Part shown: positions 28,072-31,377 of the stretch, in pieces
How the letters are laid out: every line of letters starts with the position of its first letter
Numbering within the stretch: the stretch's first letter is position 1
Assembly: GCA_017623885.1 (NCBI GenBank)
Contig: JAGAOE010000063.1
Span: 1-33,889 of the forward strand
DNA from: Eubacterium sp.
GTDB taxonomy: Bacteria; Bacillota; Clostridia; Lachnospirales; Lachnospiraceae
DNA: 33,889 bases
Direction: 5' to 3'
Made by a program: the position numbers and the translations under genes
The notes under the pieces: model-generated
What the model was told of the DNA's origin: nothing
Seen by the model: the letters and a program-made list of their open reading frames with translations, nothing else
Databases searched by the model: none

Positions 28072-30507
28072 CTATCCATCGTACCGGAGGCAACAATCCA
28101 CATCTCCTGTGTAATCCTGATTCAGATAAGACTCACAGGTAAATAAATACCATTTTGCAAGCTCATCTGTCGGCTGTTCTTTCAATACTTCTGAAAAAAC
28201 ACTTCTTGCCAAATAGAAATCATGTTGGTAAAACAGATTCAATGCCTGCTCAAACTTTTCACAAAGTGCCATCTTCTTCGTGCGCTCTTTTTGTGCATAC
28301 ACATCCAGCACTTCATACATGTTCATCTTTTTACCGCTGCTTCCCATTTGAACATATCCGATACAACGCAAAGAGCCATCATAATGTTCACGTTCTTTTA
28401 CTGATTCAGAAATCACCAGCTTCAGTCCATGCTCTCTGAACCATGTCGCAAAACCTTCGATTTCTTCTGTATCCGGCGAAATCAAAAATGCACTGCTTTG
28501 CTTGTTCGTTCCGGCCACACCGTATACAAACGACGAATAATGCAACAACATAGATGCTTTCGAAGATACCGTTCCTTCAAGCGCGTCTTTCTCTCCCAGC
28601 TCCTTTAAAAAGTCTATCGCACTCTTTAGCGTATTTGCATTCTGTTCCATAAACAGAAATCTCAGCATCGACAAAGACCCATTACTTGACACAAATACAC
28701 CGTCTTTTTCTTCCTGATATTTACCGAGCAATGCCAACAGCCGATTCAGCCGGTCTACTTCTACTTCATTTCCGCTTCGTGGCTCAACGGTAGAAATCAT
28801 AGCCATCGTACCCATAAGCTTTGCCACATTACCGCATTCGACTTCTGTAATAGATGCCTTGTTTAAAAGCTTTTCAATATTTTTGGGTGCGAAACGGTAA
28901 TAGGCTTCAAATGTCATCAGTTTTGTATAATAAACATTTCGAAGCTTCTTTTGAATCTCGCCTAATGCGTTCCACAAAGCACGCATATCTCTTCCGTATA
29001 CAACCGGTCGTTCGATATCTGTTTTTCCGGATGCAACAAGCTGCATACTGTGTGTCAATCGATTCAAGTCTGACGATTGCAACAGTAATATTACAACACA
29101 CACCAAGCTCGCTATCGCAAACACAATCAATGCCGCTACCAAATCCGATTGATAATTTGACAAGTCAAATGCATCATTCTCGTACAACGCCACTAACGCA
29201 TACTGCTTTTCATCAAAGCTCATTGTTTCCGGTGTAACGGTCAGTATTTGATATCGCTTTCCATCCAGTTCAATCTCACAACTCGTCATTTGACCCGGAC
29301 GAATGAGGTTCCTAACACCGGTGTCATCTGCTTTAAAATATCGATCCTTTATGGTCTCGTTATTTTTTCCGTTTGCACTGGCAAGAATCACGCCTTCTTC
29401 TGCATCTGCCAAAAGTAAATCAACAAATCCGTCTGCAGTCGTATTGATTTTCAACTCATCAAACAGTTCTTTCAATTGCAAATACTCTGACGAGCTATAA
29501 AAATCTTTACTGTCAAATCCCTGTTTACTTATTTCGACAACCTGATCCGATACATCATTCAATACATAGGCAAGCCATCGTGTTTTTGACTCTGACTCTA
29601 GCTGCATTTGATTTTTGTTCTGAACCAGCACACCGCCAACTACAATCACTGCCAGTACTGCTTCCAGTACAATCGCAGTATAGACCACTCGATTACGGTT
29701 TTTCAGCAAAATGAATACCAGAAATATTACCATCCATCCGCTGATGATTGCTATCAGCAAATAAGCCAGACACTCGCCGTTATATTGCATCAACTGACGA
29801 AAAGACATCGTGCACTGTGTATAAATAAAGCGAATGCTGTCTTCTATTTCAAACGGTCCTGTTACGAAATCTGCATCTGTACGAACAGCAAAGTTTCCTG
29901 CATCGTAGCTCGCATCTACATAAAATCTGCCCGGCTCACATTCGGTGCGACTAAAGCTCTCGATTTCCATCGATGTCAACGCTACATCCTTATCTGCGAA
30001 CATCTGCAGCGGTATACTGTATATGCTTGCTGCAGCTCCATCCTCAGCCACTGTTGTAAGATACAATTCTGCATCATCAATGGAAAGCTCACACGGTTTT
30101 CCCTTATCCTGCAAAGTCAGCAACGGTGTCTGTCGCAGAACCTTCAGATTTTCATCAAATTCCAAAATACAATATGTACCAAATGCGCCCTGCGCGTATT
30201 CAGGCTTCACTTCCAACAATGCATATAAGTAATCTTTGAAAGCAACTTCACGAACAAATGCACCTTCCAGCTCTTTCAATTTTCTTGTTGAAACGAAATC
30301 CTTCACTTGTCCGTAAAGATCCATTTTATAGATATAGCCTGTATCTTCGTCGTTATCACTTACATACACATCCTGCTCTACGCTACATCCATCATTATCA
30401 TAAGTATATATACCGTCCGGTCGATGATTCCAAACGTAACATCCATACAGTGCGGTGGCAGCCAGCAACCATATAACACCAATAACTATTGGCAATTTCT
30501 TACTCAT
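28072..30507 (-). CDS. Four-helix membrane sensor with degenerate class III cyclase domain and TPR
   Basis: Predicted order in 811 aa: TM1 (5-26), an outside beta-rich domain (about 30-240), TM2 (248-268), TM3 (275-295), an outside Cache-like sensor (300-450), TM4 (456-477), a HAMP-like linker, a class III nucleotide cyclase fold (535-735) and a TPR-like helical pair (750-797). The cyclase fold is clear from YYRFAPKNIEKLL, LHYSSFVYGVAGTNKQSS and the closing YDGSLRCIGYVQ plus KKMNMYEVL. The metal-binding aspartates appear lost (MISTVE and SSNGSLS where Asp-containing motifs are expected), and the VNLAARL-type Asn is absent, so it is probably a pseudo-cyclase that signals by shape. I start at the ATG at 30507 (GGGAGA 7 nt upstream) rather than the GTG at 30528. 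Confidence 0.75.
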   Translation of the reverse strand: MSKKLPIVIGVIWLLAATALYGCYVWNHRPDGIYTYDNDGCSVEQDVYVSDNDEDTGYIYKMDLYGQVKDFVSTRKLKELEGAFVREVAFKDYLYALLEVKPEYAQGAFGTYCILEFDENLKVLRQTPLLTLQDKGKPCELSIDDAELYLTTVAEDGAAASIYSIPLQMFADKDVALTSMEIESFSRTECEPGRFYVDASYDAGNFAVRTDADFVTGPFEIEDSIRFIYTQCTMSFRQLMQYNGECLAYLLIAIISGWMVIFLVFILLKNRNRVVYTAIVLEAVLAVIVVGGVLVQNKNQMQLESESKTRWLAYVLNDVSDQVVEISKQGFDSKDFYSSSEYLQLKELFDELKINTTADGFVDLLLADAEEGVILASANGKNNETIKDRYFKADDTGVRNLIRPGQMTSCEIELDGKRYQILTVTPETMSFDEKQYALVALYENDAFDLSNYQSDLVAALIVFAIASLVCVVILLLQSSDLNRLTHSMQLVASGKTDIERPVVYGRDMRALWNALGEIQKKLRNVYYTKLMTFEAYYRFAPKNIEKLLNKASITEVECGNVAKLMGTMAMISTVEPRSGNEVEVDRLNRLLALLGKYQEEKDGVFVSSNGSLSMLRFLFMEQNANTLKSAIDFLKELGEKDALEGTVSSKASMLLHYSSFVYGVAGTNKQSSAFLISPDTEEIEGFATWFREHGLKLVISESVKEREHYDGSLRCIGYVQMGSSGKKMNMYEVLDVYAQKERTKKMALCEKFEQALNLFYQHDFYLARSVFSEVLKEQPTDELAKWYLFTCESYLNQDYTGDVDCCLRYDG

Positions 30508-30531
30508 ATGTGTTTCTCCCAAATTCACGGA

Positions 30532-31377
30532 TTATTGAAGTAATGACTCTGTTCCGATTTCCTTAAAGCCATTAAAAAATAGTCTCAACCACGGAATATC
30601 ACCCCAAATCGCCTGCGTCACAAATGAAACAATCACGATGAGTACTAACAAAACACAAATCCAAAACAATATTCCGAATAAACTATCTCTATTTCTATAA
30701 AACCAAGCCTTGCATTTCGCCCACAGACCATTTTTATTCTTTGTAGCAGATGCAATCCGAACATCTTTATACAGCTCTGTAAAGCGATGATAACTTTTCT
30801 TTGCGATTTTCTTATCAAGCAACTGATAACTAATCGCCTTTTGTGCAGCTTTCGGCTCCAAAAGCTCTCGCAAAATCTTTGCACATTGTACGGCGCAATC
30901 ACGTTCCGTCTTTTTTACATCCAGATTTTCTAAATTTATCGTATAACCCAGATACACATTATGATTTTTCGCCAGATGCAACTGCTTCTGTTCCAAAATC
31001 AAATACAAAATCGGATACGGAATCTCCGCCGCAATACATGCCAGTAATGTATTGATACATACCTCTTCACACTCATCCAAGGTGTAAGTCGTACCCATAT
31101 AAAACTTCTGGAGCGAACGCTCTTTGTAATAAGGATACACCAAGACAAATGCACCCTGATCCGAAAAGCTGTCAATACACGATTTTTCTTTCGCATACTC
31201 CGAACGATCATATATCGTGAGAATCTTTTTTACCAATTCATGATCATAGATCACTAATGTCGTATATAAGCTTTCTTCACTTGCATTGAGATCCTGACAA
31301 ACCAGAATATCATTCATCGAAGTCCGTTCAATGACGCGTATGCTTTTTAATCGCATTTTCTGCGACTGATAGATCAT
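30532..31377 (-). CDS. Pseudokinase-like protein with one C-terminal membrane helix
   Basis: The 281-aa protein has a cytoplasmic domain of about 225 residues, a membrane helix (233-256, LFGILFWICVLLVLIVIVSF) and a short outside tail. The soluble part has a faint protein-kinase outline: a hinge-like AFVLVYPYYKERSLQKFY (76-93), and LYLILEQKQLHLAKNHNVYL followed by GYTIN (125-147), aligning with the catalytic and metal loops. HRD and DFG residues are missing, so it cannot be an active kinase of the usual kind. The pseudokinase-then-helix layout recalls EssB/YukC of type VII secretion, which act as scaffolds. Homology is not shown. It starts 13 nt after the first operon gene (GGAGG site) and overlaps none. 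Confidence 0.55.
   Translation of the reverse strand: MIYQSQKMRLKSIRVIERTSMNDILVCQDLNASEESLYTTLVIYDHELVKKILTIYDRSEYAKEKSCIDSFSDQGAFVLVYPYYKERSLQKFYMGTTYTLDECEEVCINTLLACIAAEIPYPILYLILEQKQLHLAKNHNVYLGYTINLENLDVKKTERDCAVQCAKILRELLEPKAAQKAISYQLLDKKIAKKSYHRFTELYKDVRIASATKNKNGLWAKCKAWFYRNRDSLFGILFWICVLLVLIVIVSFVTQAIWGDIPWLRLFFNGFKEIGTESLLQ

Follow-up and report, generated by a model that had tools for sequence, protein, structure and literature searches.

A contractile injection system (CIS) cluster in a Eubacterium sp. genome of the family Lachnospiraceae (assembly GCA_017623885.1, contig JAGAOE010000063.1) encodes, side by side, two membrane proteins in which the predicted folds of a protein kinase and a class III cyclase are combined with loss of the catalytic residues. 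We refer to them as the pseudokinase (281 residues) and the pseudo-cyclase (811 residues). The window, by which we mean the whole stretch of DNA analyzed, is the complete contig of 33,889 bases, and its source genome is 76% complete. On balance, we favor the view that the pair forms a membrane-docking and sensing module of the Lachnospiraceae CIS, with the pseudokinase as its hub and the pseudo-cyclase as an accessory sensor. The gene cluster, the predicted folds and topology, the catalytic loss across relatives, selection, synteny, and non-obligate pairing were computed; the partners of the two proteins, a dimer, docking, and the control of firing are what we infer from them.

Neither a kinase nor a cyclase family was found when the two window proteins were scanned as single sequences against Pfam (stray weak matches to FTR1, Wzy_C, and DUF2207_C were set aside). 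Because such scans miss both families, it was not trivial that an earlier note on this DNA had recognized both fold outlines, and structure prediction with comparison against the Protein Data Bank (PDB) now matches the proteins to the kinase and class III cyclase folds. Homologs were drawn from loci fetched with the 601-residue CIS13-family protein encoded directly before the pseudokinase (80 loci, the best 80 of 561). Together with the window, these gave an alignment of 77 pseudokinases (A4) and one of 67 pseudo-cyclases (A5), and a diverse set of 13 pseudokinases provided a further profile and alignment (A2); L and G numbers below denote loci and genomes. The open reading frame (ORF) of the pseudokinase is intact on the − strand, and the AlphaFold2 model of its product, from 77 alignment rows, has a pLDDT of 84.7 and a pTM of 0.71. 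In a Foldseek search of the PDB the model matched 1062 chains at E ≤ 1e-3, with a best E of 1.5e-6, and 49 of the 50 matches listed name a kinase in their titles, the remaining one, 1z5m, being titled by its ligand only. Among the matches listed, TM-scores are just 0.31 to 0.55, with root-mean-square deviations (rmsd) of 4.3 to 10.3. VIA-align superposed the model on PknA with Z 13.5 and rmsd 3.1 over 194 aligned residues. Kinases also account for 30 of the 32 listed matches of the A2 profile against the PDB, with the catalytic loop in register and a best E of only 0.033, and the pseudokinase profile picks up genuine kinases in two genomes of the class (1.7e-4 and 9.3e-5). L142 and L143, matched in the class scan, were rejected as pseudokinases, since they have the HRD and DFG motifs of true kinases.

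The active site of the pseudokinase is absent throughout the family. When the 77 proteins are aligned with local true kinases, the place of the β3 lysine is taken by L, I, V, A, F, W, or Y in every one, and that of the HRD aspartate by I, V, L, A, M, or C; none has either residue of an active kinase. The DFG columns are gapped in all 77, and the activation segment is therefore shortened. The absence of HRD and DFG that the earlier note had read from the window thus holds across all 77 proteins. In 11 farther CIS pseudokinases the β3 lysine and HRD aspartate are both gone as well, with L028 carrying a lysine near β3, one column off. The control set of 11 kinases (9 of 20 fetched kinase loci plus L142 and L143, the other fetched loci having failed the motif pick) has the β3 lysine and DFG in 11 of 11, while HRD is present by construction in 9 of the 11, which were picked via the HRD pattern. 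Hydropathy places one membrane helix at residues 235–253, preceded by four K/R residues and followed by one, which predicts a kinase domain inside and a C terminus outside the cell; there is also a weak second hydropathy peak within the kinase domain of the window protein. All 77 near pseudokinases have a helix after residue 200, as do 10 of the 11 farther ones. Conservation among five stretches of the protein is highest in the short outside tail, with a mean majority-residue share of 0.77 in A4 and 0.56 in A2. Ile274 and Gly275 of this tail are invariant in A4, and an IGT motif lies within the final 20 residues of 62 of the 77 proteins and is retained in L183 and L218, which belong to other families of the phylum.

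The pseudo-cyclase ORF is likewise intact, and would encode 818 residues if the GTG at 30528 were the start. Hydropathy finds four membrane helices (7–25, 250–268, 277–295, and 456–474), so that both proteins are membrane proteins, as the earlier note had it; the 67 pseudo-cyclases show four (n = 35), five (n = 26), six (n = 5), or seven (n = 1) hydrophobic peaks. The model from 67 rows has a pLDDT of 87.4 and a pTM of 0.60, and Foldseek matched it to adenylyl cyclases, with a best E of 1.8e-8 to OaPAC. The isolated cyclase domain superposes on 5mbg with Z 17.3 and rmsd 2.5 over 169 aligned residues, and on Cya2 (2w01) with Z 17.1 and rmsd 2.7 over 176. Family scans of nine diverse pseudo-cyclases found HAMP in three and Guanylate_cyc (PF00211, 1.7e-6) in one. 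The most cyclase-like relative, from L181 in another family (PF00211, E 4.4e-12), has lost both metal aspartates and the substrate lysine and has kept the transition-state asparagine. In the window protein, both metal aspartates and the substrate lysine are replaced by serine, the substrate aspartate by proline, the asparagine by glutamate, and the arginine by glycine, in agreement with the earlier claim that metal aspartates and catalytic asparagine are missing. Among the 67 near pseudo-cyclases, the first metal aspartate is kept in 1, the lysine in 0, the residue of the second metal aspartate column in 23, the substrate aspartate in 6, the asparagine in 1, and the arginine in 15. Across 76 pseudo-cyclases, none of the six catalytic residues is kept in 30, one in 37, two in 8, and three in 1, so that no protein has more than half of the set of an active class III cyclase. 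All six are present in 11 of 11 control cyclases (from 20 fetched loci, the others having failed the motif pick), the first metal aspartate by construction of the pick. The TPR-like tail is the best conserved of eight stretches of the protein (0.65, with 13 of 60 columns at ≥90% in the 67 rows), and the outside domains and membrane helices are the least conserved (0.33–0.37). The double outside sensor described in the earlier note is present in the window, whereas the pseudo-cyclases of L021 (554 residues) and L028 (564 residues) have no first outside domain.

The dead state is common to every pseudo-cyclase and every CIS pseudokinase compared, and is therefore no fresh defect. Nei-Gojobori dN/dS was calculated for pairs at 75–97% protein identity. 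In the pseudokinase, the medians are 0.066 for the kinase domain (33 pairs) and 0.116 for the helix and tail (32 pairs); in the pseudo-cyclase protein they are 0.040 for the cyclase domain (7 pairs), 0.046 for the TPR-like tail (6 pairs), 0.093 for the first outside domain (6 pairs), and 0.188 for the Cache-like domain (6 pairs). Both proteins are under purifying selection, with the cytoplasmic dead domains constrained no less tightly than the sensor domains. The predicted folds, the active-site loss in relatives from several families, and this selection together support the proposal that two dead folds are kept for a non-catalytic use.

Both genes keep their place beside the gene for the CIS13-family protein. 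The pseudokinase lies directly behind it in 78 of the best 80 loci, the other two ending 9 and 21 bases past the 601-residue ORF, and the pseudo-cyclase is the next gene in 74. Five of the six remaining loci have only 0–331 bases left, and the sixth, L111, has a 91-residue partial match (E 1e-5). In a scan of the family, 15 of 200 genomes have a pseudokinase match, 13 of them, the window included, within CIS clusters; the matches L029 and L030 were dropped, with no CIS cluster around them and poor alignment. In a class-level scan, 8 of 391 genomes have a relative of the 601-residue protein and 6 of the 8 also have a CIS pseudokinase, with none at E ≤ 0.01 in G224 and G530. At the level of the phylum, 9 of 299 genomes have a match to the 601-residue protein, two of them being the window and G180; a pseudokinase is also present in G813 and G692, and none was found in G755, G706, and G793. 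Weak matches in G631 and G893, to the C-terminal part only (3.4e-7), are outside these counts. No pseudokinase ORF was found at 1e-3 in L133 and L144. The order CIS13-family gene, pseudokinase, MORN-repeat gene recurs in L183, and in L218 a fragment of the CIS13-family gene stands just before the pseudokinase, which is followed by the MORN gene. Where the pseudo-cyclase is absent, the MORN gene adjoins the pseudokinase. The pseudo-cyclase is placed elsewhere in the CIS cluster in G022. In G056, the pseudokinase stands between CIS13-family and MORN genes near a contig edge, with a 906-residue pseudo-cyclase relative on a different contig.

Several of these observations weigh against the view that the pair is a docking and sensing module. 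The five genomes with a relative of the 601-residue protein and no detectable pseudokinase (G224, G530, G755, G706, and G793) mean that this class of machine can dispense with the pseudokinase. A pseudokinase occurs with no detectable pseudo-cyclase in G085, G104, G176, and G813, where the pseudo-cyclase profile gave HAMP-region matches only across the genomes, none past position 534 of 809; G224 is the converse, with a pseudo-cyclase within its CIS cluster and no pseudokinase at the threshold given above. Synteny indicates shared function, not contact, and hydropathy detects no membrane helix in the ORF of the L141 pseudokinase. Median dS values of 0.83–1.35 make the dN/dS estimates rough, with just 6–7 usable pairs for the pseudo-cyclase protein. 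Finally, profile-profile comparison with true enzymes, one of the checks suggested in the earlier note, was weak when made from shallow local alignments: a probability of 24.7% for the pseudokinase against nine kinases (100 columns, on the N-lobe side only) and 3.6% for the pseudo-cyclase against 11 cyclases, although the latter is collinear across 185 columns, and crossed controls gave 0.1% and 0.3%. The fold assignment therefore rests on structure. An obligate two-protein relay was rejected, as each protein is found without the other being detectable, and the earlier suggestion of a relay, taken as one fixed pair, is not supported. Because the pairing is not obligate, the pseudokinase belongs with the CIS13-family and MORN-repeat proteins, and the pseudo-cyclase is a frequent addition.

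In the docking and sensing module that we favor, the dead kinase domain in the cytoplasm would hold a protein of the baseplate side, most likely the 601-residue CIS13-family protein, and the helix and conserved IGT tail would connect the pseudokinase with operon products on the outside, of which the MORN-repeat protein is the likeliest. The two outside domains of the pseudo-cyclase could read the surroundings, with the HAMP region and coiled coil transmitting a change of shape. The dead cyclase domain and TPR-like tail may then act as a dimerizing output surface that permits or blocks docking or firing. The pseudo-cyclase would relay shape in this process, and cAMP would not be produced. We put forward more tentatively, as a possibility rather than an expectation, the fuller picture of a membrane-anchored Lachnospiraceae CIS with a bitopic pseudokinase as anchor, whose docking or firing is gated through a dead dimer by a shape-signaling pseudo-cyclase receptor.

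The best-surviving alternative, which we consider unlikely, is that the two proteins form a sensor in the envelope that governs the timing of CIS production, and not the site of docking, by signaling to STAS/HATPase partner-switch genes at the operon end. An inactive cyclase preceded by HAMP and two outside domains has the layout of a receptor, and a STAS gene follows Tail_P2_I in the window and six relatives, with HATPase_c_2 and a dCache-HAMP-SpoIIE phosphatase added in L036. However, the pseudokinase is grouped with the genes of the CIS13-family and MORN-repeat proteins at one end of the cluster, with the partner-switch genes at the other, and the genes behind STAS differ between loci. Less probable again is self-protection, with both proteins keeping the CIS off the producer's own membrane until a signal arrives; CisA, a membrane protein of the Streptomyces CIS, is proposed in one report as a checkpoint against self-killing (PMC12237407), but a brake and a dock are indistinguishable from the present evidence. 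We give slightly less credence still to one or both proteins binding nucleotide or catalyzing an unusual reaction. Migrated residues are described for some pseudoenzymes (PMC10211241), and the displaced lysine of L028 would fit such a case, but nonpolar or aromatic residues at the lysine and aspartate places, gapped DFG columns in all 77 pseudokinases, and at most three of six cyclase residues in 76 pseudo-cyclases argue against residual activity. That the two are decaying, functionless leftovers is very improbable: the active sites are gone, but the genes hold their place with open frames in dozens of loci, are under purifying selection, and are already dead in far relatives.

The large − strand ORFs of the window form a CIS cluster (Table 1) with sheath, tube, spike, gp25, baseplate, Pvc16_N, and CIS13-family genes, several genes without assignment, and a DUF4280/PAAR-like protein. 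At the upstream end, the order of transcription is the 601-residue CIS13-family protein, pseudokinase, pseudo-cyclase, MORN-repeat protein, weakly TolC-like protein, 879-residue protein, Pvc16_N, a 247-residue protein, DUF4280, and sheath. Gaps of 13 and 24 bases separate the pseudokinase from the CIS13-family gene and from the pseudo-cyclase (with its ATG start), respectively. The closest named locus, L041 from a Lachnospiraceae metagenome-assembled genome, is 84% identical across the 601-residue protein. This protein matches the NCBIfam model for CIS13, NF053767, over its N-terminal part only (E 7.8e-25), and its 87.9 bits lie below the curated cut-off of 370 bits for a CIS13 equivalog; the model is matched at E ≤ 0.01 by 13 of 13 relatives. 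By hydropathy, no membrane helix is present in the window protein or in 9 of 12 relatives, and the other three have a single peak barely above threshold (1.61–1.79). No match to the AAA+ ATPase Cis15 was found among the window proteins scanned, but the contig ends, and L031 and L037 do carry AAA genes past the cluster.

Table 1. Positions of the two proteins, their parts, and the surrounding CIS genes in the window.
Feature	Position	Strand	Basis
Membrane pseudo-cyclase, 811 aa: four helices, two outside domains, HAMP/coiled coil, class III cyclase fold, TPR-like tail	28072..30507	-	Model, alignment, hydropathy
First outside domain (res. 28-243), sixteen strands in model, propeller-like by strand count	29779..30426	-	Model; weak NHL match (E 0.0044), one relative
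Second outside domain (res. 301-448), Cache-like	29164..29607	-	Model; weak Pfam Cache matches (0.021-0.071), one relative each
Pseudo-cyclase domain (res. 536-737)	28297..28902	-	Model, structure comparison, alignment
C-terminal helical TPR-like tail (res. 738-797)	28117..28296	-	Model; TPR_2 only E 0.1, one relative
Bitopic pseudokinase, 281 aa: cytoplasmic kinase fold (res. 1-215), helix 235-253, short outside tail	30532..31377	-	Model, alignment, hydropathy
Place of HRD catalytic loop, reads YLILEQKQ (res. 125-132), without catalytic Asp	30982..31005	-	Alignment
Outside C-terminal tail (res. 256-281), ends IGTESLLQ	30535..30612	-	Alignment
CIS13-family protein, 601 aa, gene directly before pseudokinase	31391..33196	-	NF053767 match at residues 8-146, hydropathy
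MORN-repeat protein, 410 aa, one membrane helix (72-90)	26795..28027	-	Family scan, hydropathy
685-aa protein, hydrophobic N-terminal stretch, weak TolC/OEP-like match	24734..26791	-	Family scan, hydropathy
879-aa protein, hydrophobic N-terminal stretch, same operon	22095..24734	-	Hydropathy, synteny
Pvc16_N protein of CIS	21484..22074	-	Family scan
CIS sheath	18586..20283	-	Family scan
gp19-type CIS tube, two CIS_tube proteins, gpV spike, gp25, baseplate J, Tail_P2_I, unassigned genes interspersed	2785..18546	-	Family scans

The 685-residue protein matches TIGR01844 (5.2e-5), a TolC/OEP-type family, though the host presumably has a single membrane, and it is conserved in CIS loci long enough to reveal it. 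At the other end of the cluster (564–2696), a 99-residue STAS protein is encoded after Tail_P2_I and is followed by a MATE-type membrane protein whose C-terminal part has a stretch resembling HATPase_c_2 (E 0.004). STAS has the same place in L031–L034, L036, and L037, and its neighbors in L036 amount to a partner switch beside the CIS. In the farther CIS clusters of L182 (8875–12418) and L185 (7690–11339), ABC_sub_bind and MFS-domain proteins are encoded close behind the relative of the 601-residue protein, at the expected place of the pseudokinase; the outside domain of CisA has been likened to a solute-binding protein (PMC12237407). The second gene behind the CIS13-family gene in L186 (8043–9638) encodes a 531-residue protein that has an SsdA-like DNA deaminase toxin domain (6.7e-17) at its C terminus and is a candidate CIS cargo. 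A gene for JetA, of the Wadjet defense system, lies near the CIS cluster in L181 (4888–6294), and a 973-residue protein with weak β-propeller matches and an MFS transporter domain is encoded behind the cluster in L034 (14223–17144).

These proteins touch on the question of how a CIS without a membrane part of its own finds and pierces a membrane, for which one separate adaptor is described, CisA of Streptomyces. Searches of the open literature for CIS with pseudokinase, Lachnospiraceae, Butyrivibrio, or cyclase found no description of the module among the matches listed, with subscription papers and preprints mostly outside their coverage. A metagenome survey of CISs describes the human gut systems as Bacteroidota and without Cis13, and its main text does not contain the words Lachnospir-, Clostridi-, Bacillota, or Firmicutes (PMC12210884), so the survey seems not to have covered the Lachnospiraceae branch. 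Hubs made of pseudokinases and adaptors of CISs are each known, and their union with a conserved pseudo-cyclase seems to be new. A conserved pseudokinase/pseudo-cyclase module in gut and rumen CISs offers concrete, deletable adaptor candidates. If the proposal is true, the CIS would join type VII and type IV secretion as a third kind of machine that has taken up a bitopic pseudokinase hub, and such pseudokinases would be an answer found repeatedly in the envelope machines of Gram-positive bacteria. A conserved dead class III cyclase as receptor output would similarly be a second-messenger enzyme turned mechanical relay.

Each component has relatives among known proteins. Lachnospiraceae class III adenylyl/guanylyl cyclases of about 600 residues are membrane proteins that end in a cyclase domain, but the 11 compared keep the catalytic set and stop before the TPR-like tail. 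The pseudokinase domain of Rv3910/MviN is also bacterial and part of a membrane protein (PMC12599244), and VIA-align superposed the pseudokinase model on it with Z 12.1 and rmsd 3.8 over 195 aligned residues; Rv3910/MviN differs in being a peptidoglycan synthesis protein. The pseudokinase profile also finds pseudokinases in other Clostridia families, at loci with no matched CIS gene. Pfam identifies outside LysM domains in L136 and L138 and PKD in L139, which L127, L137, and L140 resemble by reading of the sequence, and all six have asparagine at the β3 lysine place and at the Asn171 place. Seven scanned neighbors of these non-CIS pseudokinases comprise metabolic genes, a helicase, a symporter, and a histidine kinase, with no secretion genes. 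The CIS pseudokinase may derive from this LysM/PKD-type stock.

Among CIS proteins, Cis13 of the Anabaena thylakoid system is described as penetrating the membrane with a helix of its own (PMC8894136), whereas the window protein, which shares the CIS13 name through the N-terminal match to the NCBIfam model, has no helix by hydropathy; a separate anchor is therefore wanted. CisA resembles the pseudokinase in crossing the membrane as a bitopic protein and in being encoded alongside a CIS, in its case a cytoplasmic one; it is reported to be required for contraction and proposed to act as adaptor, sensor, and checkpoint (PMC12237407). By that description, its cytosolic part is largely unstructured, in contrast to the kinase fold of the pseudokinase.

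The closest parallels in architecture lie in other machines. The EssB/YukC family was not detected among the 13 pseudokinases with PF10140 or the NCBIfam EssB models at E ≤ 1, no YukC/EssB chain was listed at E ≤ 5 in the PDB search with the A2 profile, and a scan of 196 genomes of the class gave no match to PF10140; EssB/YukC is also absent among the 50 Foldseek and VIA-align rows listed, which is no evidence against EssB likeness. The published descriptions of EssB/YukC of type VIIb secretion (PMC9600267, PMC12599244) nevertheless match the topology predicted here, with a cytoplasmic kinase fold, one helix, and an outside C terminus, and they report loss of all motifs and a reduced activation loop. 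YukC is an interaction hub of its machine for which ATP binding seems impossible, and its outside part has about 140 residues, against about 26 in the CIS pseudokinase (PMC9600267). The parallel with EssB drawn in the earlier note is thus apt, and in print it is wider: TraF of the pIP501 type IV system, another Gram-positive machine, is an EssB-like bitopic pseudokinase proposed to help build its apparatus, though by description it belongs to a conjugation machine and has a second soluble domain (PMC13037476). By analogy, the CIS pseudokinase would be a membrane adaptor whose role in the injection system parallels that of EssB/YukC in type VII and of TraF in type IV secretion.

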